Shown here one piece after another: positions 2,328-25,685 of a DNA stretch of 27,793 nucleotides (position 1 is its first letter; every line of letters starts with the position of its first letter). Location: IMG/VR virus record IMGVR_UViG_3300042934_000249, positions 1 to 27,793 of that record, one strand, 5' to 3'. A program made the translations under genes and the position numbers. This stretch comes from a virus. The notes beneath the pieces were generated by a model, which was not told the origin of the DNA, made no database searches, and saw only the letters and a list, made by a program, of their open reading frames with translations.

Positions 2328-3521
2328 TCAGACCGCCAGGCCGCGGTACACGCCGTGCGCGAGCGGGTTGCCGTACTTCAGGCCGATCTCGCCATAGATC
2401 TGCGACTTGATCGACGCGCCCGTGCGAGCCAGCTCCTCCTCGAAGAGAACACCCTTGCCGGGGATCTCCATGAAGACCGGGTCGACCTGCTCGAGCGACA
2501 CAACCGCGATCGTGTCAGGAGCAAGCGCCCGCTCGATGACGACGTTCAGCGTGCCGAAGTCGGTCTCGATGGTCTGCACGTTCACGCCACCCACGTTGCG
2601 GGTGCCAGCGAACAGGTCGGTCTTGCCGAACGCGTCAGCGAATGCCGACGAGATCGCGCGCTTCTGACGCGAGGAAACGAACAGTGTCGCCGTGTCCTGC
2701 TCCGAGATGCCACCGTTGTCGTAGATGCCCTGCATGAAACCGGAGAACCCGTCCCACGTCAGAGTCGTCGCCGCCTCGATGACACTGACCGTGGACGTTC
2801 CGAGCGTGATCGCCGAACCGCCGAGGGTGGCGGAGATCTTGAACGAAACAGTGGTCGAGATCGACACCACGTAGTAGACGCGGTCGGTGCGGAGACCGGT
2901 CCCGCCTGCGTTGGTGATGACGATCTTGTCGCCGTTCGAGAACGCGTGCGTCGCGGTGACAGTGTCCGTCGCCGTGGTACCCGAAACCTCGCCGGTAGCG
3001 ATGCGGTTCGTGGTCACGACAGACAGAAGCCCACCGGTCTGACGAGCGGTCGCGTTCGTAGCGGGGTTCGCCTCGATGCCGTGCCAGAACGAGTAGTTGA
3101 CGTCGCGCGCGATCGTCTTGAGCGCGTTGCTGACCTGGTGACCGTGCTCGTCCGCAACCGGGTTCGCCCCGCCGTCAGCGGAAGTCCACGGCGCAGCCTC
3201 AACGGTCTTGTACTGACCGACCGCGGCCTGCTTCGTGTACGAGGTGCTGACCGACTCGTGGAAGATCTGCACCACGTTGTCGATGTTCGAGCGCGAACGC
3301 TCCTCCGACGTGGGCGCGTCGGCACCCTCGAGACGCGACTTGATCTCCGGGTCACGGAGATCCTCGGTCTGCCACTCGAAACGAGTCGAAGAGGTCGACT
3401 TGCCGCCGCCAATACCGCCCGAGAGCGACAGAAGCGGGGTGTCAGTGGGGGTGATGGCGATCAGTTCGCCGTGATAGTTCGGGAGATTGAACGTCGTCCC
3501 GAGACCAGAGACAGTAGCCAT
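2328..3521 (-). CDS. Major capsid protein (SU10 / DUF5309-like, HK97 fold) with inserted beta domain
   Basis: This 397-aa protein builds the icosahedral shell. The N-arm (MATVSGLGTTFNLPNYHGEL, then TDTPLL), the early RFEWQTEDLRDP, the long helix VGQYKTVEAAPW and the C-terminal segment (VSLEQVDPVFMEIPGKG, GEIGLKYGNP) match the SU10-like branch of HK97-fold capsids. Residues about 172-256 are a Thr/Ser/Val-rich beta segment (HAFSNGDKIVITN, VYYVVS, LGGSAITLG) breaking the core between GGLLSVV and TWDGFSGFMQGIYD. It looks like a surface insertion domain. AAAGG upstream of ATG 3519-3521 serves as ribosome site. The scaffold gene ends three bases upstream, and connector genes follow. Confidence 0.93.
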   Translation of the reverse strand: MATVSGLGTTFNLPNYHGELIAITPTDTPLLSLSGGIGGGKSTSSTRFEWQTEDLRDPEIKSRLEGADAPTSEERSRSNIDNVVQIFHESVSTSYTKQAAVGQYKTVEAAPWTSADGGANPVADEHGHQVSNALKTIARDVNYSFWHGIEANPATNATARQTGGLLSVVTTNRIATGEVSGTTATDTVTATHAFSNGDKIVITNAGGTGLRTDRVYYVVSISTTVSFKISATLGGSAITLGTSTVSVIEAATTLTWDGFSGFMQGIYDNGGISEQDTATLFVSSRQKRAISSAFADAFGKTDLFAGTRNVGGVNVQTIETDFGTLNVVIERALAPDTIAVVSLEQVDPVFMEIPGKGVLFEEELARTGASIKSQIYGEIGLKYGNPLAHGVYRGLAV

Positions 3522-3524
3522 GGT

Positions 3525-4148
3525 CTAGCCTTTCTGCGCAGCCTTCTGCGTCTTGAGAGTTGCCGCGAGCGCAAAGTTGCGCGCCGCGGTTGCAGCCTTG
3601 ATCGCGTCGTCGATGTCATCAGCAGCCGGCTTGGCGGGAGCCTTAGCCCCACCGTCACCGCCGCCCTGGAACCGGCCCTGCTGAGCCGCAAGGTGCGGCT
3701 TCTTCGCAAGGAGCTCATTGACTGCGTCCGCGAGAGTGTCAGAGTCGACATTCCCGTCGTCATCAACCTCGAAAGACCCGGGGTCAACGATCGAGGGATA
3801 CGCAAGGATGTCGGTCGGATCGGCGAGCTTGCCCGTCGCAGCAGCGCGAAGGTTGGCCTTCACAACCCGAAGGTTGGCGGCACTGGTCGCTTCGGCACGC
3901 GCCTCAGCCTTTGCGGCCTCCAGCGCCTGCTCCTCAGCGGGCTTATCTCGCAACGCCAGTTCGGCACGTACACGCTCGAGCTCGGTCTTCGCATCGCGCG
4001 CTTCGGCCTTCGCCGCCGCACGTTCCGCCTTCATCCGATCGAGCGCCTGCTTACCGGCGTCCCCAAGTGCACCCTCACCCGAATCGAGCTCGTGTGCACT
4101 ATCCTGCGTTTCGTCATCCACCGTTGCGGTGGTCTCCTGCTCTGACAT
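3525..4148 (-). CDS. Capsid scaffolding protein
   Basis: This 207-aa protein is acidic at the N-terminus, then mostly a long charged Ala/Glu/Arg/Lys coiled coil (about residues 32-95, with KAERAAAKAEARDAKTELER). It ends in a Gly/Ala/Lys linker and a short C-terminal helix (DDIDDAIKAATAARNFALA). Scaffold proteins guide capsid assembly and leave or are cleaved before packaging; they typically sit just upstream of the capsid gene, as here. GAGGAG lies 9 bases before the ATG. The sequence itself is low-complexity, so the call depends on architecture and location. No protease domain is visible, so this is not a protease-scaffold fusion. Confidence 0.88.
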   Translation of the reverse strand: MSEQETTATVDDETQDSAHELDSGEGALGDAGKQALDRMKAERAAAKAEARDAKTELERVRAELALRDKPAEEQALEAAKAEARAEATSAANLRVVKANLRAAATGKLADPTDILAYPSIVDPGSFEVDDDGNVDSDTLADAVNELLAKKPHLAAQQGRFQGGGDGGAKAPAKPAADDIDDAIKAATAARNFALAATLKTQKAAQKG

Positions 4149-4222: not shown

Positions 4223-5242
4223 TCAGTACAGGTACCCGTACCGGTTGAGAAGTTCCGCGATGCGTTCCGGATCGGTCGACATGCGCATGATCTGCTCAGG
4301 CATCAGGCGGAGCGTCTTCGTCCGCCGATACCTGTCCGAACCGCTCCGGTAAAGGTCATCGTTGGAGCGAGCCCACGCTGAACGCGCCGTCGTGCCCTCC
4401 GGGGTCGCATAAACCACGAGCGGCGAACCGTCAGCCGTCCGACCGATCTGAACCGGACGTAGCGACGCGCGGGAGTACGACCCGTCAGGACGTTTCGTGG
4501 AGGTGAGCGCACCACGGCGGGCGTTGACCACCTTGACGGGGTCAGCGCCGGCCCTGATTGCCTCGGCGCCAGCCTTCGTGAACACCCGCTCCTGCTCCGC
4601 AGAAGATAGCGACTCGAAATAGTCGGACGGAGACGAGAAGAACCCATCCGGTGTCTCGTTCTCGTACAACGGCATCGACGTACACCGGCAACCCGGATGC
4701 CTCTTGAAGTCAGTCCGGTACCCCTTGACGCCCGCGAGGATCGCACACCTCGAACACGCCCCCGGGTTCACCACCCGGATGCTGAACAGCGACCCACGCC
4801 CGACAGCGGCCGTCTTATCGGCCATCCGTCCCGCGTCGCGGACCAGCGTCGCAGCCATCACGTGCATCAGCGCCGCACCAGTCCTGAACGCTTCCCCAAC
4901 GCCACTGCCACGGCCAATCAGCCGCTTCGTGGTGGTGACCGCCGCATACAGTTCCGGGGCCACAGAACGGCCCTCACGAGTCACCCCGCCGAACGCCTCC
5001 GGAACCACCTCCGGTCCACCGGACCCCAACGCACGCGTGGTGAACCCCGACGCCATCCGCGCCGCGTTCACCTGGCCCGCCGAAACGGCAACCTCCAACT
5101 CGGGTGCAATCGCAGACCAGCCGGCCTCAAGCGACCCAGCCGACATGCGACCCCACAACAGAGACGCCTGTGCGGCCGTGCGCTCAGACTCCGCTACGAG
5201 ACGATCCTGATGGCGAGAAGCAACCTCAAGCAGCGTCGCCAT
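4223..5242 (-). CDS. MuF-like minor head (capsid maturation) protein
   Basis: This 339-aa protein overlaps the end of the portal gene by 17 bp. The N-terminal half is helical. The centre carries the MuF-like signature: GACSRCAILAGVKGYRTDF followed by RHPGCRCTSMPLY, with Cys163, Cys166, His182, Cys185 and Cys187 placed to bind a metal. MuF-like proteins sit inside or at the head vertex in few copies, and some are ejected with the DNA. Beyond residue about 195 there is an extra C-terminal region (SSPSDYFESLSSAEQERVFTKAGAEAIR, later RRTKTLRLMPEQIMRM) that could be a separate domain; no toxin catalytic motif was recognised in it. Location after portal is standard. Confidence 0.88.
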   Translation of the reverse strand: MATLLEVASRHQDRLVAESERTAAQASLLWGRMSAGSLEAGWSAIAPELEVAVSAGQVNAARMASGFTTRALGSGGPEVVPEAFGGVTREGRSVAPELYAAVTTTKRLIGRGSGVGEAFRTGAALMHVMAATLVRDAGRMADKTAAVGRGSLFSIRVVNPGACSRCAILAGVKGYRTDFKRHPGCRCTSMPLYENETPDGFFSSPSDYFESLSSAEQERVFTKAGAEAIRAGADPVKVVNARRGALTSTKRPDGSYSRASLRPVQIGRTADGSPLVVYATPEGTTARSAWARSNDDLYRSGSDRYRRTKTLRLMPEQIMRMSTDPERIAELLNRYGYLY

Positions 5243-6707
5243 CAGCGGTATCCGCCTCTAGCTCAGCCTGCAACGCCTCCTGAACACCAACACCCATCGC
5301 GACATCGGATTCTTCCTTCAGCATCCGCTTGATCCGAGCCATGTCATACGGGTCAATACCGTCCCGCTCCATGATCCACTCCAGCGGATACCCGGTCTGC
5401 CGCTTCTTCAGAAGCGCGTCCGCAAGCTGCGACTCCGAGCGGATCTCAGGGTTCTTCCACACGATCGTGGACATGCGAACCTCATCCGCAAGAGAGTTCT
5501 CCCCCTTCGCGAGAGCGATCAGACGAAAGATCTCCTGAATACCAGGGTTCGCATACGTCTGGAACTCGTATTCCTTGTTGACAAGACCAAGCTCCGACTT
5601 CTCCAGCCCGTCACCGCCTACATTCGACATACCCACCTTGGAAATGAGGTACGTCGGAGGGGTACGGGTCTGAGAGAAGATGTGCCCGACCAGAATGTCG
5701 ATCACATCGGTGAAAACATCCAGCTTCGCCGCATCCCACTGGTCAACCTTCGCGTGCTCGCCAGAGAACACAGCAAAACGCGTCTCGTTGAGTTCCTTCA
5801 TCGTCAACGGCTGCTCGAGGAACGTGCCGTCCGGCTGAGGAATGCGCCGCATCGGCGGCTGCGCGCCCAGAAGCACACGCGCCGGCATAGACGCATAGTC
5901 AGCCGCGAAGAACAGATAAGCCCACAGCAGGTTCACCGCGTTCTGCTTCGGGATCACCGCCTCAATCTCAGAGACCGGCTCACCACGCAGCATCGGACGG
6001 TTCGGAATCTCCACAATGGGCACAACACCCATGGGGTTCCGCTGCGGGTTCGGCTCGCCAGGAACCTCACGCAGCTCCCACGCGCCCCAAGAACTCGACG
6101 ACAGCGCAGCCATCTGCACCGACTGGGGCTCATTCCCCATCGCCGCGGCAGCCGAACGGGGACGAACGAACTTCCACAACTGGTCGGGTGTATACAGGTT
6201 CGCGTACTCGTTGGTCTCATCAACCCACGTCTTCAGCGCAGCCTTCCGCTTACGCGGATTCATCCAGTCGTACTCGATCTCGACATTCGACGGGTGCTCC
6301 CAGGTCACCTCGGCGTCATCGCCCCACACCATCACGTAAGAACGCTTGGCGTTGAACGACGTAAGGAACCCCTGAGACGACTGCGCGTCCATCTGGTTCC
6401 TCAGCCAGTGATCCCACAGGCCAGACGCGCGGCGCTGCGTGGCGGCATCCCGAACCATCGGGTCTTCGCCACGCAGCTTCACGCCCAGAACCTTCGTGCG
6501 CTCCCCGATGGCGTTTGTCACAGACGCGCACCAGTTGTCAGAGAACTCCGAATAGCGGGCACCGTTCGCCTTCAGCCACTCATCCGTGGCAAACGTAAGC
6601 TTCTGGTGACCCGCGTAGTACTGCTCGAACATATCGATCTGTGGCCTACGGGCGACAAGCCGCTTGTTGATTTTGTTGACAAGCGCAAGGGCTTCTTTCG
6701 AGTCCAT
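5226..6707 (-). CDS. Portal protein (SPP1 gp6-like)
   Basis: This 493-aa protein forms the dodecameric ring through which DNA enters the head. The start is ATG 6705-6707, preceded by AGGGGTTTC; an in-frame TTG 21 bases earlier is less likely. The N-terminus (ALALVNKINKR, FEQYYAGHQKLTF), the clip/stem region (NWCASVTNAIGERTKVLGV), IEAVIPKQNAVNLLWAYLFFAADYASMPARVLLG and the late segment (DVIDILVGHIFSQTRTPPTYLISK) are in the order and spacing of actinophage portals of the gp6 family. The usual acidic C-terminal tail is present (LQAELEADTADGDAA). It lies between large terminase and MuF-like genes. Confidence 0.93.
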   Translation of the reverse strand: MDSKEALALVNKINKRLVARRPQIDMFEQYYAGHQKLTFATDEWLKANGARYSEFSDNWCASVTNAIGERTKVLGVKLRGEDPMVRDAATQRRASGLWDHWLRNQMDAQSSQGFLTSFNAKRSYVMVWGDDAEVTWEHPSNVEIEYDWMNPRKRKAALKTWVDETNEYANLYTPDQLWKFVRPRSAAAAMGNEPQSVQMAALSSSSWGAWELREVPGEPNPQRNPMGVVPIVEIPNRPMLRGEPVSEIEAVIPKQNAVNLLWAYLFFAADYASMPARVLLGAQPPMRRIPQPDGTFLEQPLTMKELNETRFAVFSGEHAKVDQWDAAKLDVFTDVIDILVGHIFSQTRTPPTYLISKVGMSNVGGDGLEKSELGLVNKEYEFQTYANPGIQEIFRLIALAKGENSLADEVRMSTIVWKNPEIRSESQLADALLKKRQTGYPLEWIMERDGIDPYDMARIKRMLKEESDVAMGVGVQEALQAELEADTADGDAA

Positions 6708-6724
6708 GAAACCCCTATCGAAAG

Positions 6725-8419
6725 TCAAAGAATCCAGGTGTACTCCGTGTCGGGAGTCGTGAACAGTTCAGCCGCGATGGCGTCCATCGTTGCTTCGTGC
6801 GCCAGGGTCGAAGACATCGCCTGGTCGATCTTTTGGTGGTCGGCGCCATGAGGCTTCCCGAGGACGTACCGCTGCATCGTTTTCGCGATCATCACCGCGT
6901 TGGTGACATGCGTGCGCGTGACCGTGTCGCCGTCGTGCCGAAAGGATGCATTCGGGTTTCGGATAACGGAACGGAACTGCTCAAGCGAAGCGTGCATGGG
7001 TGTCAGGCGAGCACACGACCAAGGCAGGAACACCTTCGCCCCGTACTTCGCCGCCCACTCCGCCAACTCCGTGCGCCAGGAATCGTCATCGTCGATCGCG
7101 GTCGCATCAATCGCACCCGCCGCTGACCCCGCAGGGTCAATGTAGGCGCGCACGATTCGGTAGTTCGACGCGAGATAGTCAACCGCCGCCCGCACTTCTC
7201 CACGCGGAATGTACCCGTTGAAGAGAGCAGGGTCCCAAACGGTCGGTCGATCCTCACCGCCGACGCTGTAAGTCGGCGTGAACTGATACTGATCCGCCGT
7301 CTCGAGTCGAATGCCCGTCCAGTCATTGTTGTTCGACAGGTCCATACCCATCGCAACAGCCGTACGGGGAGACACTTCGACGGGTGCACTCTTCGACACC
7401 CACTCTTCCTCGGTCACCCACTTGCCATCGCCCGCAACAAGCCGGTTCCCGAAGAACCGTTCCGCGTCGGCCGGGTCGTTCTTCATCATCTCGGCGGCTT
7501 CGCCCTCGATCATGTCGACGTTGACCCACGGCGCGCCCGCATAGTTGAACTGGAAGATCTTCCGACGATCCGCCTTGCTCTTGAAGCTCAGGTTGGCGGG
7601 CGGCTTCCGGAAGTCGCGGTGTACGTCCTTCGCGTCGGACTCATACGTCCGTTGCGCCACCGAATCCGCGGCCGGGTCCCATGCGTTCGTAGTCTCAATC
7701 GCACGCCCACCCATACCGGCGAGACCCTGACGCTGCTTCTTCGCCAGGTTGTGCCCGCCGTTGGACTTAGTCCACAGCCCCGTCTCGTCCTGCACCACGA
7801 ACGTGACACGCTGACCAAGACGCGAGTTCCCCTTAGATGTAACGACATCGATGCGCCCATCGCCCGGCAGGCGAATGAACTCCTCGCCCGTCTTAGGGAT
7901 GAGATCCGCCAGAGGCCCGAGCTCGATCATGGGCCGCAAAGCGTCATAGGTGTTCGCGGTCTGATCCTCCGACGTCGCCGTGATCTGAATCAACGGCGTC
8001 GCCCACGGGCGCCCCATCGGAGCCCCCTCCGGATACCGGTACACCCACCCGCAGAAACACCCATGCTCAGCGCAGTCGTAAACCTCGCCACCCTGGGCCC
8101 AACCAGCGAACAACGCCGGCCCGACACCCTCCACACAAACAAACGCGGAGATGAGCGGCGACTTACCCCACTTCTGCGCACGAACGAGCTGCGAACGACG
8201 GAAGGTGAACGCCGAACCAAGCGGGTTAGCAGGAAGATCAGGATCGAACTCCGCGGCCGGGTCGAACTTCGCGGCACCACGCACCAGATAGTGCGACCCA
8301 ACGAACATGAACTGCTCATCCGCAAGCTTGAACGGAAGTCCCCGGTGCGCCCTATCCGGCACCACACAGTGCCGCTCAATCCACTTAGGGACCACCAACA
8401 GCGGACGGTCAGCGCCCAT
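6725..8419 (-). CDS. terL: Terminase large subunit (ATPase and nuclease)
   Basis: This 564-aa motor protein pumps DNA into the procapsid and cuts it. The ATPase half has an adenine-side stretch (GLPFKLADEQ), a deviant Walker A at residues 81-91 (AQKWGKSPLIS), a Walker B ending in D211-E212 (VTFVVQDE) and the coupling motif ITATSEDQTANTYDAL near 146. The nuclease half has the RNase H-like acidic residues in MGMDLSNNND (D360) and AYIDPAG (D428), with a late acidic helix near D532. Length is normal for the family. It overlaps the small terminase gene by 11 bp, as is common. Confidence 0.95.
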   Translation of the reverse strand: MGADRPLLVVPKWIERHCVVPDRAHRGLPFKLADEQFMFVGSHYLVRGAAKFDPAAEFDPDLPANPLGSAFTFRRSQLVRAQKWGKSPLISAFVCVEGVGPALFAGWAQGGEVYDCAEHGCFCGWVYRYPEGAPMGRPWATPLIQITATSEDQTANTYDALRPMIELGPLADLIPKTGEEFIRLPGDGRIDVVTSKGNSRLGQRVTFVVQDETGLWTKSNGGHNLAKKQRQGLAGMGGRAIETTNAWDPAADSVAQRTYESDAKDVHRDFRKPPANLSFKSKADRRKIFQFNYAGAPWVNVDMIEGEAAEMMKNDPADAERFFGNRLVAGDGKWVTEEEWVSKSAPVEVSPRTAVAMGMDLSNNNDWTGIRLETADQYQFTPTYSVGGEDRPTVWDPALFNGYIPRGEVRAAVDYLASNYRIVRAYIDPAGSAAGAIDATAIDDDDSWRTELAEWAAKYGAKVFLPWSCARLTPMHASLEQFRSVIRNPNASFRHDGDTVTRTHVTNAVMIAKTMQRYVLGKPHGADHQKIDQAMSSTLAHEATMDAIAAELFTTPDTEYTWIL

Positions 8420-10014: not shown

Positions 10015-10044
10015 GGTGTACCTCGATGTCGAAGGGAATCGTTG

Positions 10045-10118
10045 CGGTACTGACCGGACTTGAACCGGCGACCTCTGCCGTGACAGGGCAGCGCTCTAAC
10101 CAACTGAGCTACAGAACC
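10045..10118 (-). tRNA. tRNA-Asp (anticodon GUC)
   Basis: The minus strand folds as a 74-base tRNA without encoded CCA. The D arm is GCTCAGTTGGTTAGAGC, the anticodon stem CTGCC/GGCAG surrounds loop CTGTCAC with anticodon GTC, and the T arm GCCGG/CCGGT surrounds TTCAAGT. The discriminator is G73, as expected for Asp. The acceptor stem GGTTCTG/CAGTACC pairs except for a T-T mismatch at position 4:69. It lies alone between a ParB-like gene and an HNH gene. Confidence 0.92.
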
Positions 10119-14536: not shown

Positions 14537-14862
14537 CGGGTTCCTGCTTCCTCAAGACTGTGGGCGAGCTCAACGTCTTCCGCGGGCACGAAACAAAACC
14601 CCGGACGCACCCCCGACATGCGCCACTCCGACCCCGGATGCACACACTCCGAAGCCACAGGGTGACGATCAACCGGGGGGAACACGACAGCAACCCGACC
14701 CGCATGGTCTGCGCACGCGAACATGTTGTGCACCGGGTTGTCGTATAGGTAATGGGTGGTTGCGGGGGCGCCACACATGTGGACAGCCCACGACGTGACG
14801 AACCCGCAGTGCCCCTTCGCCGACGTGGGCAGGACAGGACCGAGCGTTCCCGGGCGGGTCAT
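14533..14862 (-). CDS. Hypothetical zinc-binding protein, 109 aa
   Basis: The protein starts MTRPGTLGPVLPTSAKGHC. The segment CGAPATTHYLYDNP followed by MFACADHAG gives a Cys/His set that could bind zinc, a pattern common in small actinobacterial proteins. The C-terminal third (VHPGSEWRMSGVRPGFCFVP) has no known match. It overlaps the methyltransferase gene upstream and the zinc-ribbon gene downstream by ATGA, so it is translated with them. Confidence 0.7.
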   Translation of the reverse strand: MTRPGTLGPVLPTSAKGHCGFVTSWAVHMCGAPATTHYLYDNPVHNMFACADHAGRVAVVFPPVDRHPVASECVHPGSEWRMSGVRPGFCFVPAEDVELAHSLEEAGTR

Positions 14863-15611
14863 GCGCGTGCTCCTTCACGGGCGAGGTGATGCGTCATGAT
14901 TCGTCGCCCGATGTGCTCGAAGATGGGTGGGACGACGGCGTTCCCGAGGGCGTGGAGAGGGTTGTAGACCAGCCGGCGGGGAACCCCATGAGCCACTCGA
15001 CCCACCTCGGGTTCAGGTAGCCAATCCCCTCCCCCGTGTTGCCCACCGCTTCCTCGAGGTTCAAGTTCGAGCGGCCAGGGCGTTGCGGGTTCGTCCTGAT
15101 CCCCGCCATTACCGCCCGAGGGGTAGGCCACGAGGTAGACCCTTTCGCGAATGTGCGGTGCGCCGAACTGGTTCGCGGATAGAGTCGACCACTCCGCATC
15201 GAACCCGAGGGCGTGAAGGTCGGCGAGGACGGACCCCCAAGCCCATCCATCTCGAACGAGAGCTGCGACATTCTCCACCACGACGTAGCGGGGTCGTACT
15301 GTCCGAATGACGTCGGCCATTGCGGGCCACATCCAGCGCTCATCTTCCATGCCTCTCTGTAGTCCGCCCTGGCTGAATGGCTGGCATGGGAACCCGCCGG
15401 CGACAACGTCAACGGGTTCCCGGTCAGACCACCATGCGGGCGTGGTGACGACGTCGTCGTGAATCGCTGCATGCGGCCAATGGCGAGCGAGAACCTGCCG
15501 GCACCACTGGTCACGTTCGACGAGGCCGACGATGTTCATGCCCGCGCGTTGCAGACCGAGCTCTATCCCCCCGATGCCGGCGAACAGGCCGACCACATTG
15601 AGCGGCCTCAT
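14859..15611 (-). CDS. DNA (cytosine-5) methyltransferase
   Basis: This 250-aa enzyme transfers a methyl group from S-adenosylmethionine to carbon 5 of cytosine. The motifs are in order: FAGIGG at 10-15 (motif I), GGFPCQPFSQGG at 72-83 with nucleophile Cys76 (motif IV), ENV at 113-115 (motif VI), RERVYLVA at 155-162 (motif VIII) and LGNAVVP at 222-228 (motif X). The target-recognition region between VIII and X is short, so the recognised site is probably short. No restriction nuclease is adjacent. The phage probably uses it to mask its own DNA from host restriction or to feed a later modification. Coupled by ATGA on both sides. Confidence 0.94.
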   Translation of the reverse strand: MRPLNVVGLFAGIGGIELGLQRAGMNIVGLVERDQWCRQVLARHWPHAAIHDDVVTTPAWWSDREPVDVVAGGFPCQPFSQGGLQRGMEDERWMWPAMADVIRTVRPRYVVVENVAALVRDGWAWGSVLADLHALGFDAEWSTLSANQFGAPHIRERVYLVAYPSGGNGGDQDEPATPWPLELEPRGSGGQHGGGDWLPEPEVGRVAHGVPRRLVYNPLHALGNAVVPPIFEHIGRRIMTHHLAREGARA

Positions 15612-17956: not shown

Positions 17957-18328
17957 TTATCGGACGTTCGCTATCTCCAGCAGCACGTCAGCGTGGCAGG
18001 GCTGATCCAGCGGGCACCAGCACGCGAGGTCACGGCCACCGAGTTCGGTACGCAGGAGTGCGAGCGTTTCGGTGTCGTACTCGTGGGCGCCGAACGGGCC
18101 GGTCTGGAGCTCGAACGCCTCGACTGCCCATGCCCGCGCCTCGGACGCGTCCGCGCTTACGCCCAGAACATGACTGCCCCGAACGATGTAGGCCATGGTC
18201 CCGTCGATGAGACGGTCCCTGGTGATGCGGTACGGGTTGCCCCATTTCGACGGCCGCGACACGATCACCGCATCCGGGTTGTCAGCCCGCCACGGGCGCT
18301 GGCGGGACATCTGAATCCGCTTAGGCAT
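17957..18328 (-). CDS. DUF4326 protein
   Basis: ATG 18326-18328 gives 123 aa starting MPKRIQMSRQRPWRADNPDA. The family marks are VSRPSKWGNPYRIT near the start and LGGRDLACWCPLDQPCHADVLLEIA at the end, with Cys-Trp-Cys and Pro-Cys-His likely in an active or metal site. DUF4326 is widespread in bacteria and phages and its function is unknown; a nucleotide-binding role has been suggested from the fold but is not shown here. It overlaps the small Cys-rich gene upstream by 8 bp. Confidence 0.82.
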   Translation of the reverse strand: MPKRIQMSRQRPWRADNPDAVIVSRPSKWGNPYRITRDRLIDGTMAYIVRGSHVLGVSADASEARAWAVEAFELQTGPFGAHEYDTETLALLRTELGGRDLACWCPLDQPCHADVLLEIANVR

Positions 18329-18461
18329 CTCGGTTCCGTTCGTTGTGGTCACAGTCGGTGCAGGTACACGACACCCGCCTGCAACCGTCATGCCCCGGGG
18401 TGGATGGGTGCTGGCAGTACCCGGACATGGTCATAGGGACACGGTCACGGGATGAGGTCAT
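18321..18461 (-). CDS. Small Cys/His-rich protein, 46 aa
   Basis: ATG 18459-18461 shares ATGA with the 36-aa gene upstream. The peptide includes Y-C-Q-H-P-S-T-P-G-H-D-G-C-R-R-V-S-C-T-C-T-D-C-D-H, at least five cysteines and three histidines, so a zinc site is likely. The 'CQHPSTPGHDGCRR..CxCxDC' order is common in small actinophage proteins. Later starts at ATG 18432-18434 or 18426-18428 are possible. Function unknown. Confidence 0.62.
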   Translation of the reverse strand: MTSSRDRVPMTMSGYCQHPSTPGHDGCRRVSCTCTDCDHNERNRDA

Positions 18462-23934: not shown

Positions 23935-24068
23935 GACGACTCGACGTCCAGGATCAGTTCGCCGCCACCGTCCGGGCCGTCATCCCAGCACGCGGGACAC
24001 CAGATGCCGCGCTTCGTGCGCACGCCCCGGTATCCGCACACGTTGCAGGTTGCGTTCGCCTCGGGCAT
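23931..24068 (-). CDS. Small zinc-ribbon protein, 45 aa
   Basis: ATG 24066-24068 overlaps the stop of the coiled-coil gene. The sequence has T-C-N-V-C-G-Y-R-G then W-C-P-A-C-W-D-D-G, two intact CxxC pairs and an acidic tail (LILDVESS). It is a complete zinc ribbon of minimal size. Function unknown; it belongs to the same class of Cys-rich micro-proteins as the 36-aa protein at 18458-18568. Confidence 0.66.
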   Translation of the reverse strand: MPEANATCNVCGYRGVRTKRGIWCPACWDDGPDGGGELILDVESS

Positions 24069-24319
24069 CACTGGCTCCCGTCCGGTCGGTGTCCCCCGTC
24101 GTCTGCGATGGTCAACTCCCGCAACACCCGCTCCGTCAACGCAACCCGCGCAACCGTCGCGTCAAAGTGGCGTTGCGCGGTGTCACGGTTCGTGGTCGCA
24201 ACATGCAAGGCTGTCTCGGCACGTTCAACGTCGGTGTTGAACCGGGTGAGGTATCGGGCTGCTTCTTCCCGTTGTTCGATGGCTTGCGTGAGGAGTTCGT
24301 CAGCATCAGCAGCGTTCAT
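24068..24319 (-). CDS. Coiled-coil hypothetical protein, 83 aa
   Basis: ATG 24317-24319 overlaps the upstream stop (ATGA). Nearly the whole protein is one charged helix (LLTQAIEQREEAARYLTRFNT, ERAETALHVATTNRDTAQRHF, RVALTERVLRELT) with heptad-like spacing, so it probably forms a dimer. No functional motif. It follows the candidate oxygenase. Confidence 0.68.
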   Translation of the reverse strand: MNAADADELLTQAIEQREEAARYLTRFNTDVERAETALHVATTNRDTAQRHFDATVARVALTERVLRELTIADDGGHRPDGSQ

Positions 24320-24987
24320 GACGCGTCTCCGCCCGCTCGCGCAGGATCGTTCCGAACCGCCGTGCGCGAATGCATCGGCCAGTCGTAGTCGAACATGTAG
24401 TTGTGGCTGTTCCCGATGAGGTTGTAACGGGAGTTGGAGAACGACACCTTGAGGAAGGACCGTTCGCCGCCCGGCGCCGGAATCTCCGGGGAGGCATGGA
24501 TCACGTACGGGTCAAGGCGCATGATGAGGTTGTCCCCGTAGGTGACGACGGTCTCGGGTCGGATCTGCGACTCGAACTGGGCGATCGACACGAGATGGTC
24601 GGGGCTGACGTCGTCAAACTCCTGTTCCGCGAACAGTGTCGGGAATCGGTCAGTCCAGACGTAGTTGATGTCGTCCGTGCCGAATCCGTCTGCGTGCCAG
24701 CCTGGGCGATTGAGGGGGTTGCCGGGTGTCGCGTAGCCGCGTCGGGCCGTCAGGTAGACGTAGTCCCACTCGTTCCCGTAGACACGCTCCTCCCGGTTGA
24801 TTGCCTCCCAGACCATGTCGCGGGCGAAGGCGAGACGTTCGGGGAGGCGGACCGGGCGGAGCGGACTGTTCCTGAACCGCGGCATCCGGACGGGCAGGTA
24901 CATATAGTGCATGTACTCGTGGAAGTCAGGGTCGAAGTGCCCAACGAGTTCCGGGGCGGAACCGTACGTGCGCTGCGTAACAATCAT
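24316..24987 (-). CDS. Candidate 2-oxoglutarate/Fe(II)-dependent oxygenase
   Basis: No named phage family was recognised, but the residues fit the double-stranded beta-helix oxygenases. PGWHADGF gives the HxD pair (H98, D100), YVIHASPE gives the distal His (H164) and GERSFLKVSFS puts Arg176 twelve residues after it, where 2-oxoglutarate is bound in the family. VVTYGDNLIMRLDP before the distal His has the strand-turn pattern expected. Total length of 223 aa is normal for a minimal enzyme. The gene is coupled by ATGA to the membrane-protein gene behind the Dam methyltransferase, so a role in DNA or nucleotide hydroxylation is a reasonable guess. Protein or small-molecule hydroxylation cannot be excluded. 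Confidence 0.55.
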   Translation of the reverse strand: MIVTQRTYGSAPELVGHFDPDFHEYMHYMYLPVRMPRFRNSPLRPVRLPERLAFARDMVWEAINREERVYGNEWDYVYLTARRGYATPGNPLNRPGWHADGFGTDDINYVWTDRFPTLFAEQEFDDVSPDHLVSIAQFESQIRPETVVTYGDNLIMRLDPYVIHASPEIPAPGGERSFLKVSFSNSRYNLIGNSHNYMFDYDWPMHSRTAVRNDPARAGGDAS

Positions 24988-25148
24988 CGGTTTCTCCGGT
25001 TCGGTGAGAACAGCACGGTCAGTGCCGCGTGGGTTATGAGGGCTACGGTGAGCCCGCAGAGGATCGCTAGCCGGGCGATGTGGTTCCGTTCACGGCGCAT
25101 CCACGGGGGGCGACCGTTCACGTACGCCCACCGGTCACGACGACTCAT
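24984..25148 (-). CDS. Small membrane protein, 54 aa (or tail of a fused Dam ORF)
   Basis: ATG 25146-25148 overlaps the stop of the +1 frame of the Dam gene (ATGA), the coupling used throughout this genome. The peptide MSRRDRWAYVNGRPPWMRRERN has a basic N-terminus and then a membrane helix (IARLAILCGLTVALITHAA), a positive-inside arrangement, and ends in NRRNR. The same frame is open back to the Dam start at 25685, so as sequenced this could also be the C-terminus of a 233-aa fusion. The independent-gene reading is preferred because of the overlap and the Dam-like continuation in the other frame. Confidence 0.6.
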   Translation of the reverse strand: MSRRDRWAYVNGRPPWMRRERNHIARLAILCGLTVALITHAALTVLFSPNRRNR

Positions 25149-25685
25149 GGCCGAACCCACCTGCCCGTCACGAGGTCGAAATGTTCCGGCTCGCGCAGCT
25201 TCACGTAAGTGCCCGCAAGCGAGGTTGACGCGAGCGTCCGATCGGGCTCCGGCACCATAAGCGACCAGGACGGACGGCGCTCCACTATTGGCGTCCGCGC
25301 GCGTCCCGTCCGCATAGTGGAAGTGGAGTCGTCCGGCGAGGAATAGAACGCTCGTTGCTTTGCCCCACACCTCGCGAACGAATCCGGCAGTCTCGGTCCG
25401 CGCAAAGATGAGGGCGATACCGTCACCATGCTCCGCAAGCCGAGCAAGCCACTTCCACGCAGCGAACGAGTACGGGGGGTTCAGCCAGACGTGCCCGTCC
25501 CAGTCGGCGGATAGACCATCCTCCGGGAGCTCGATGTGACGCCCAGCAGTCGGCCACGGTCGTGGGGACGGTGCTGCGCACGGGTCAAGGTCGAACGGTC
25601 CCAGCTTCTCTACGAGGTCAGGCGGTGTGAGCCACGTGGTCGTCTTGGCTCGCGCGGACTGATGCGATCCCATCGCTCTGCTCAT
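25145..25685 (-). CDS. dam: DNA N6-adenine methyltransferase (Dam-like), apparent +1 frameshift
   Basis: The N-terminal 140 residues are a Dam-type enzyme: TTTWLTPPDLVEKLGPFDLDPCA, VWLNPPYS (the catalytic NPPY), ALIFARTETAGF and FLAGRLHFHYADG, then PSVLVAYG. After AYG the same frame turns into an Arg-rich stretch, while the +1 frame continues with PDRTLASTSLAGTYVKL and stops at 25145-25147. A one-base insertion near 25250-25262 (GGT-G-CCG) would explain this. The stop of the shifted frame overlaps the next gene by ATGA. Sequencing error, real mutation or programmed shifting cannot be told apart here. GGGGAG upstream of ATG 25683-25685 is a good ribosome site. Confidence 0.75.

Follow-up and report, generated by a model that had tools for sequence, protein, structure and literature searches.

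The gene at positions 24316-24987 of the window (the whole 27,793-bp stretch of viral DNA analysed here) probably encodes a phage Fe(II)/2-oxoglutarate (2OG) oxygenase of an uncharacterised family, often accompanied by a DUF7352 protein, that acts on a nucleic-acid or protein substrate other than methylated phage DNA. We put the probability of this reading at roughly 0.7. The assignment of the product to the Fe(II)/2OG-type double-stranded beta-helix (DSBH) proteins, with an intact and invariant active site, is well supported computationally by residue conservation and by the predicted fold. It is improbable that methylated phage DNA is the substrate. The family-wide pairing with DUF7352 is a better lead to function than the Dam methyltransferase gene that adjoins the oxygenase gene in the window.

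Layout of the window

Head and packaging genes occupy the left part of the window, and replication and early genes the right part. The features referred to below are as follows.

2328-3521, major head protein
3525-4148, scaffold
4223-5242, protease
5226-6728, portal
6725-8419, terminase
10044-10118, minus strand, tRNA-Asp (GTC), between the packaging and replication genes
14859..15611, minus strand, C5-cytosine DNA methyltransferase, 250 aa, ~8.7 kb from the oxygenase gene
24068..24319, minus strand, small protein of 83 aa, directly downstream of the oxygenase gene, as read from the junction sequence
24316..24987, minus strand, Fe(II)/2-oxoglutarate oxygenase-like protein of PHROG 1843, 223 aa, with the putative triad H98/D100/H164 and R176 as putative 2OG-anchoring residue
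24984..25685, minus strand, phage Dam-type N6-adenine methyltransferase

Since the best named matches of the SSB and the C5-methyltransferase of the window are in Microbacterium phages, an actinobacterial host is likely.

The original prediction had placed the oxygenase in a coupled series with Dam and had pointed to a C5-methyltransferase elsewhere in the window, and both observations hold. Dam exceeds the cut-off of PF05869 (E=1.3e-8; 35.1 bits against 28.1; domain at residues 16-142), while the cut-off of NCBIfam TIGR01712 is not reached (20.4 against 97.05). ATGA overlaps lie on both sides of the oxygenase gene, one joining the Dam stop to the oxygenase start and the other joining the oxygenase stop to the start of the 83-aa ORF. 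The C5-methyltransferase is real (PF00145, E=1.2e-39), and it is context only, outside the proposed system. This enzyme is short; its Pfam match covers the first half of the model only and a GNAVVP motif lies near its end, which suggests a minimal target-recognition region.

Phage homologues of Dam align to residues 1-181 only. The rest is a C-terminal extension of about 52 residues (about residues 182-233, about 24984-25142) with a hydrophobic stretch inside that is possibly membrane-spanning. An internal ATG precedes the extension, which may be a small membrane protein that has become fused to Dam. The 83-aa downstream protein is probably alpha-helical; it had no PHROG or PADLOC match, and none was found near the relatives of the oxygenase. 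On the plus strand, an ORF of 296 aa (24370-25260) lies opposite the oxygenase and Dam genes and gives BLAST matches to antisense frames of relatives. It was set aside as a gene, the most plausible reading being a shadow ORF in GC-rich coding DNA. Elsewhere in the window, a DUF4326 protein (17957-18391, minus strand) is 51% identical to L020:7033-7485 on the closest oxygenase-bearing contig, L020, where it lies <1 kb from the oxygenase gene. A relative of it is also found near the oxygenase gene in L107.

Active-site conservation of the oxygenase

The 223-aa protein gave a full-length match to the PHROG 1843 profile (E=1.3e-24; protein residues 4-213, profile 3-210 of 222). PHROGs lists this family under "unknown function"; its fold, active site and partner gene are added here. 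Pfam, NCBIfam and PADLOC contained no family for the protein, and sequence searches of the PDB with the protein itself and with an 80-row profile returned nothing useful. By tblastn, the oxygenase was found in 48 phage records, nearly all of them naming it a hypothetical protein. Profile-guided scans located it at 80 IMG/VR loci (111 confirmed) and on 15 GTDB contigs. These homologues are spread over phages of Microbacterium, Rhizobiales, Bacteroidota, Acinetobacter and others. The named hosts are, by their general physiology, aerobes or facultative anaerobes, consistent with an O2-dependent enzyme.

The predicted HxD motif (H98-A99-D100), distal His (H164) and Arg (R176) were all located in the product at these positions and in this order. 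As proof of an oxygenase, the bare motif is insufficient: the pattern HxD/E...H...R, with loose spacing, was also present in 45% of 20,000 shuffles of the sequence. It is conservation and fold, rather than the motif, that support the assignment. H98, D100, H164 and R176 were 100% conserved in 93 diverse homologues, and R94, T117, K180, N193, N196, R212 and N213 were invariant as well (93 sequences; 80-row alignment). The patterns used to scan the viral contigs included D100 in one alternative and excluded both H164 and R176; therefore, the invariance of the latter two is no artefact of the search.

Some members of the family differ in length or name. Two near-identical ones, L045:7995-9029 and L046:7995-9035, carry a C-terminal extension of ~130 aa, for which L045 gave no Pfam match. 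Another, L269:2489-3154 of Erythrobacter phage XM05_57, bears the annotation 'DNA endonuclease V', which is probably wrong; the same name is attached to some cyanophage proteins among the fold matches.

Predicted fold and enzyme class

The check put forward with the original prediction, a structure model followed by a structure search, was carried out with AlphaFold2 and Foldseek, and the proposed enzyme class stood. The model, built on the 80-row alignment, was a confidently predicted jelly-roll (mean pLDDT 91, pTM 0.88). In it, H98 lies on strand 97-99 with D100 on or beside it, H164 lies on strand 163-165, and R176 lies on strand 174-184, where the 2OG-anchoring Arg is expected (~10-14 residues past the distal His, on a late strand). 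As modelled, this placement is the canonical DSBH arrangement. Most PDB matches were Fe(II)/2OG oxygenases (AlkB, HrmJ, ColD, GriE, SptF, FtmOx1 and EFE), with E values of 1.5e-4 to 1e-3 but low TM values of 0.3-0.45. At this level of similarity, the model makes the superfamily clear, and the subfamily and substrate are not identifiable from it.

Structures that are not labelled as oxygenases, DUF4867 and YjgK, were also among the PDB matches, and they would fit a DSBH or cupin protein that lacks oxygenase activity and has, for example, a structural or sugar-binding role in the phage. In a scaffold with no catalytic function, there would be no need for the metal and 2OG ligands to be invariant across very divergent members, and we regard this explanation as highly unlikely. 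Fe(II)/2OG/O2 chemistry is what we infer for PHROG 1843, with high confidence.

Among viral models, close matches (TM about 0.8) were found in jumbo-phage and Orpheovirus proteins, so that, at the level of predicted structures, the fold extends beyond phages to a giant virus of eukaryotes. The Orpheovirus protein (BFVD A0A2I2L347, 470 aa) has the same predicted fold (TM 0.80, 22% identity) joined to another region.

Comparison with known families did not place the protein in any of them. No significant match was obtained by hhalign against E. coli AlkB, YbiX or TauD. In the PKHD/P4H-type proteins (E. coli YbiX, PiuC type), the HxD, the distal His and the Arg are spaced almost identically and fall in register, and hhalign set H98/D100/H164/R176 exactly on GFHVDG...H...R of YbiX, but this alignment was insignificant (E=0.08, probability 0.7%) and the oxygenase family has no Pfam match. 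The top PDB fold match was 3rzm (E=1.5e-4), an AlkB entry judging by its title; yet the TM was about 0.3, no AlkB Pfam match was found, and the hhalign comparison with E. coli AlkB (E=0.36) left the active site unaligned. PHROG 61, described as a widespread, EGLN3-like marine phage '2OG-Fe(II) oxygenase' (PMC12774648), is also a phage-encoded 2OG oxygenase but a different PHROG, and the window protein does not match it.

Relation to DNA methylation

The original prediction went further and suggested that the enzyme might be TET/JBP-like. Such an enzyme would hydroxylate 5mC made by the C5-methyltransferase, or 6mA made by Dam, and so shield the phage DNA from restriction. The enzyme class is right for this, Dam overlaps the gene and a C5-methyltransferase is encoded in the same window. 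Moreover, PMC12730594, citing Burke et al. 2021, describes phages that combine C5-methyltransferase, TET and glycosyltransferases. The oxygenase shares with phage TET/JBP dioxygenases the superfamily and the HxD...H...R logic. However, no match to the Tet_JBP or AlkB Pfam models was found at E<=1 in 80 family members, and no glycosyltransferases were among the listed families adjacent to the oxygenase.

The genomes of relatives also argue against a link to methylation. Fifty whole virus records that carry the oxygenase were searched with PF05869 and PF00145 and compared with 50 control phages picked by the SSB of the window, none with a detected oxygenase. Dam was present in 1 of the 50 records. 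C5-methyltransferases (over cut-off) were present in 10/50 relatives against 24/50 controls, the controls being smaller on average; this difference (Fisher p=0.006) runs in the direction opposite to that expected of a DNA base oxygenase. Dam was beside the oxygenase gene in none of the relatives examined, actinophages included. The idea that Dam or another window neighbour is conserved near the relatives was rejected. Nor are the two methyltransferases an uncommon set in actinophages, as had been thought, since relatives of the window's Dam occur in 266 phage records and those of its C5-methyltransferase in 1,593, many of them of Mycobacterium and Gordonia phages.

Because of the missing Tet_JBP match, the lack of a methyltransferase association and the absence of Dam beside the gene in relatives, the Dam overlap is in all likelihood incidental and a matter of local operon packing. 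Hydroxylation of methylated phage bases by a TET/JBP-like enzyme has little probability left.

The DUF7352 partner gene

When the neighbours of the oxygenase were clustered into families, one family recurred, the ~95-aa DUF7352 (PF24043). Of 92 unique loci, 36 had it directly upstream of the oxygenase, usually with an overlap at the start of the oxygenase gene. On the oxygenase tree, DUF7352 adjacency required 14 changes against 28.6 with shuffled labels; the trait is clustered, yet spread over several branches. In the reverse direction, a search of viral contigs from DUF7352 alone found the oxygenase in 72 of 75 loci, with a search profile that was built from oxygenase-linked copies and with some near-duplicates among the loci. 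Two of the three exceptions (L147 and L154) stop 61-70 bases past DUF7352, and in the third (L187, 75,087 bp) the oxygenase lies about 2.6 kb from DUF7352, beyond the 2.5-kb flank. The annotated phages included 12 records with the oxygenase-linked DUF7352 subtype, of which 10 carried the oxygenase.

There is a second, more divergent DUF7352 subtype, without the KTG and MQEL motifs and with no adjacent oxygenase. Two copies of it are the following.

L188:3995-4264, Janthinobacterium phage Donnerlittchen gp42
L076:7331-7597

Comparison of the two subtypes could pinpoint the residues that contact the oxygenase. For DUF7352, the model was a compact beta protein of seven strands (pLDDT 93). A structure search in the PDB gave no match with E<0.001, and a literature search found no paper on DUF7352.

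In view of this near-obligate genetic linkage, DUF7352 can be read as an accessory or specificity subunit; for the linked clades, we give an accessory role about even odds. The partner is not universally needed because the window and the actinophage relatives of its oxygenase have no adjacent copy, and none was present anywhere in the 27.8-kb window fragment.

The linkage could also mean that the oxygenase is a protein hydroxylase. It would then modify a host or phage protein, for instance RNA polymerase, the ribosome or DUF7352, and DUF7352 would serve as its substrate or adaptor. The alignment to YbiX, of the PKHD/P4H type, which is in register but insignificant, would agree with this. On the other hand, the compact and confident beta fold of DUF7352 offers no obvious flexible substrate peptide, and the actinophage members, the window included, lack a nearby DUF7352. 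We consider a protein side chain a possible substrate, at a tentative level.

Genomic context of the relatives and possible substrates

Genes of RNA repair adjoin the oxygenase in several phages. In Musetta, a Microbacterium phage, PNK and RNA ligase genes lie directly downstream; in DSS3_VP1, RNA ligase 2 lies just upstream, with NAMPT also in the context; and in L085, a T4-type (Rnl1-type) RNA ligase gene precedes the DUF7352-oxygenase pair. The gene next to the oxygenase in Erythrobacter phage XM05 is named polynucleotide kinase, a name that the families searched do not confirm. ATP-dependent DNA ligases are encoded near the oxygenase in L056, L067 and L081. RtcB was detected in 5/50 relatives and 0/50 controls. 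All five belong to the 8 IMG/VR records that are nearest to the window protein, and two of them are near-duplicates by oxygenase sequence.

These neighbours, together with the several invariant basic residues of the oxygenase, would fit an enzyme that modifies or demethylates RNA or tRNA within phage RNA-repair or counter-nuclease modules. RNA-repair neighbours are found at a minority of loci, however, and RNA ligases, present in 11/50 relatives, occur mostly in large phages, where ligases are common. The RtcB and ligase context therefore hints at RNA metabolism, confounded by phage size and relatedness. An RNA-directed role is a tentative proposal that we hold no more firmly than that of a protein hydroxylase.

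A small-molecule or nucleotide oxygenase, that is, an auxiliary metabolic enzyme acting for example on a nucleotide or an NAD-related compound, has also to be weighed. GriE and FtmOx1 were among the best PDB matches, and NAD genes are direct neighbours of the oxygenase at three loci (NAMPT in L027; NMNAT-NUDIX in L032 and L053). Nevertheless, the neighbour sets are heterogeneous with no conserved metabolic pathway partner, and clustering of neighbour families gave no common metabolic neighbour beyond DUF7352. We regard this role as rather unlikely.

In our preferred reading of a phage Fe(II)/2OG oxygenase acting on something other than methylated phage DNA, Fe(II) would be held by H98/D100/H164 and 2OG by R176, probably with K180. 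O2 would be used for hydroxylation, or for hydroxylation and demethylation, of a substrate held by the further invariant polar residues R94, T117, N193, N196, R208, R212 and N213. The substrate would most likely be either a nucleic acid, with 5mC and 6mA of phage DNA excepted and RNA as a first guess, or a protein side chain; each of the two is put forward as a possibility only. In the window, the oxygenase would be expressed with Dam from a tightly overlapping early/middle-gene operon, in which Dam would be incidental to the chemistry. A large part of the family would act with the dedicated ~95-aa, beta-strand-rich DUF7352, whose most likely role is that of accessory or specificity subunit.

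A more far-reaching version of this scheme is speculative. PHROG 1843 and the linked DUF7352 subtype might form an undescribed two-component oxygenase, with DUF7352 as an obligate specificity factor or activator. This enzyme might oxidise host or phage RNA (or a translation protein) for counter-defence or takeover, with the actinophage enzymes standing alone. We consider this full scheme doubtful.

Significance

The case of Dam illustrates that a gene overlap in one genome should not be taken as a functional link. Many phage genomes encode small oxygenases of unknown purpose. PHROG 1843 combines an unusually conserved active site with presumably aerobic or facultative hosts and a range that extends from T7-like to jumbo phages. 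The protein of the window is a new member of this unnamed phage 2OG oxygenase family, and its interest lies less in the window copy than in the pairing with DUF7352. The oxygenase and its near-obligate partner make up a concrete, testable two-gene system.
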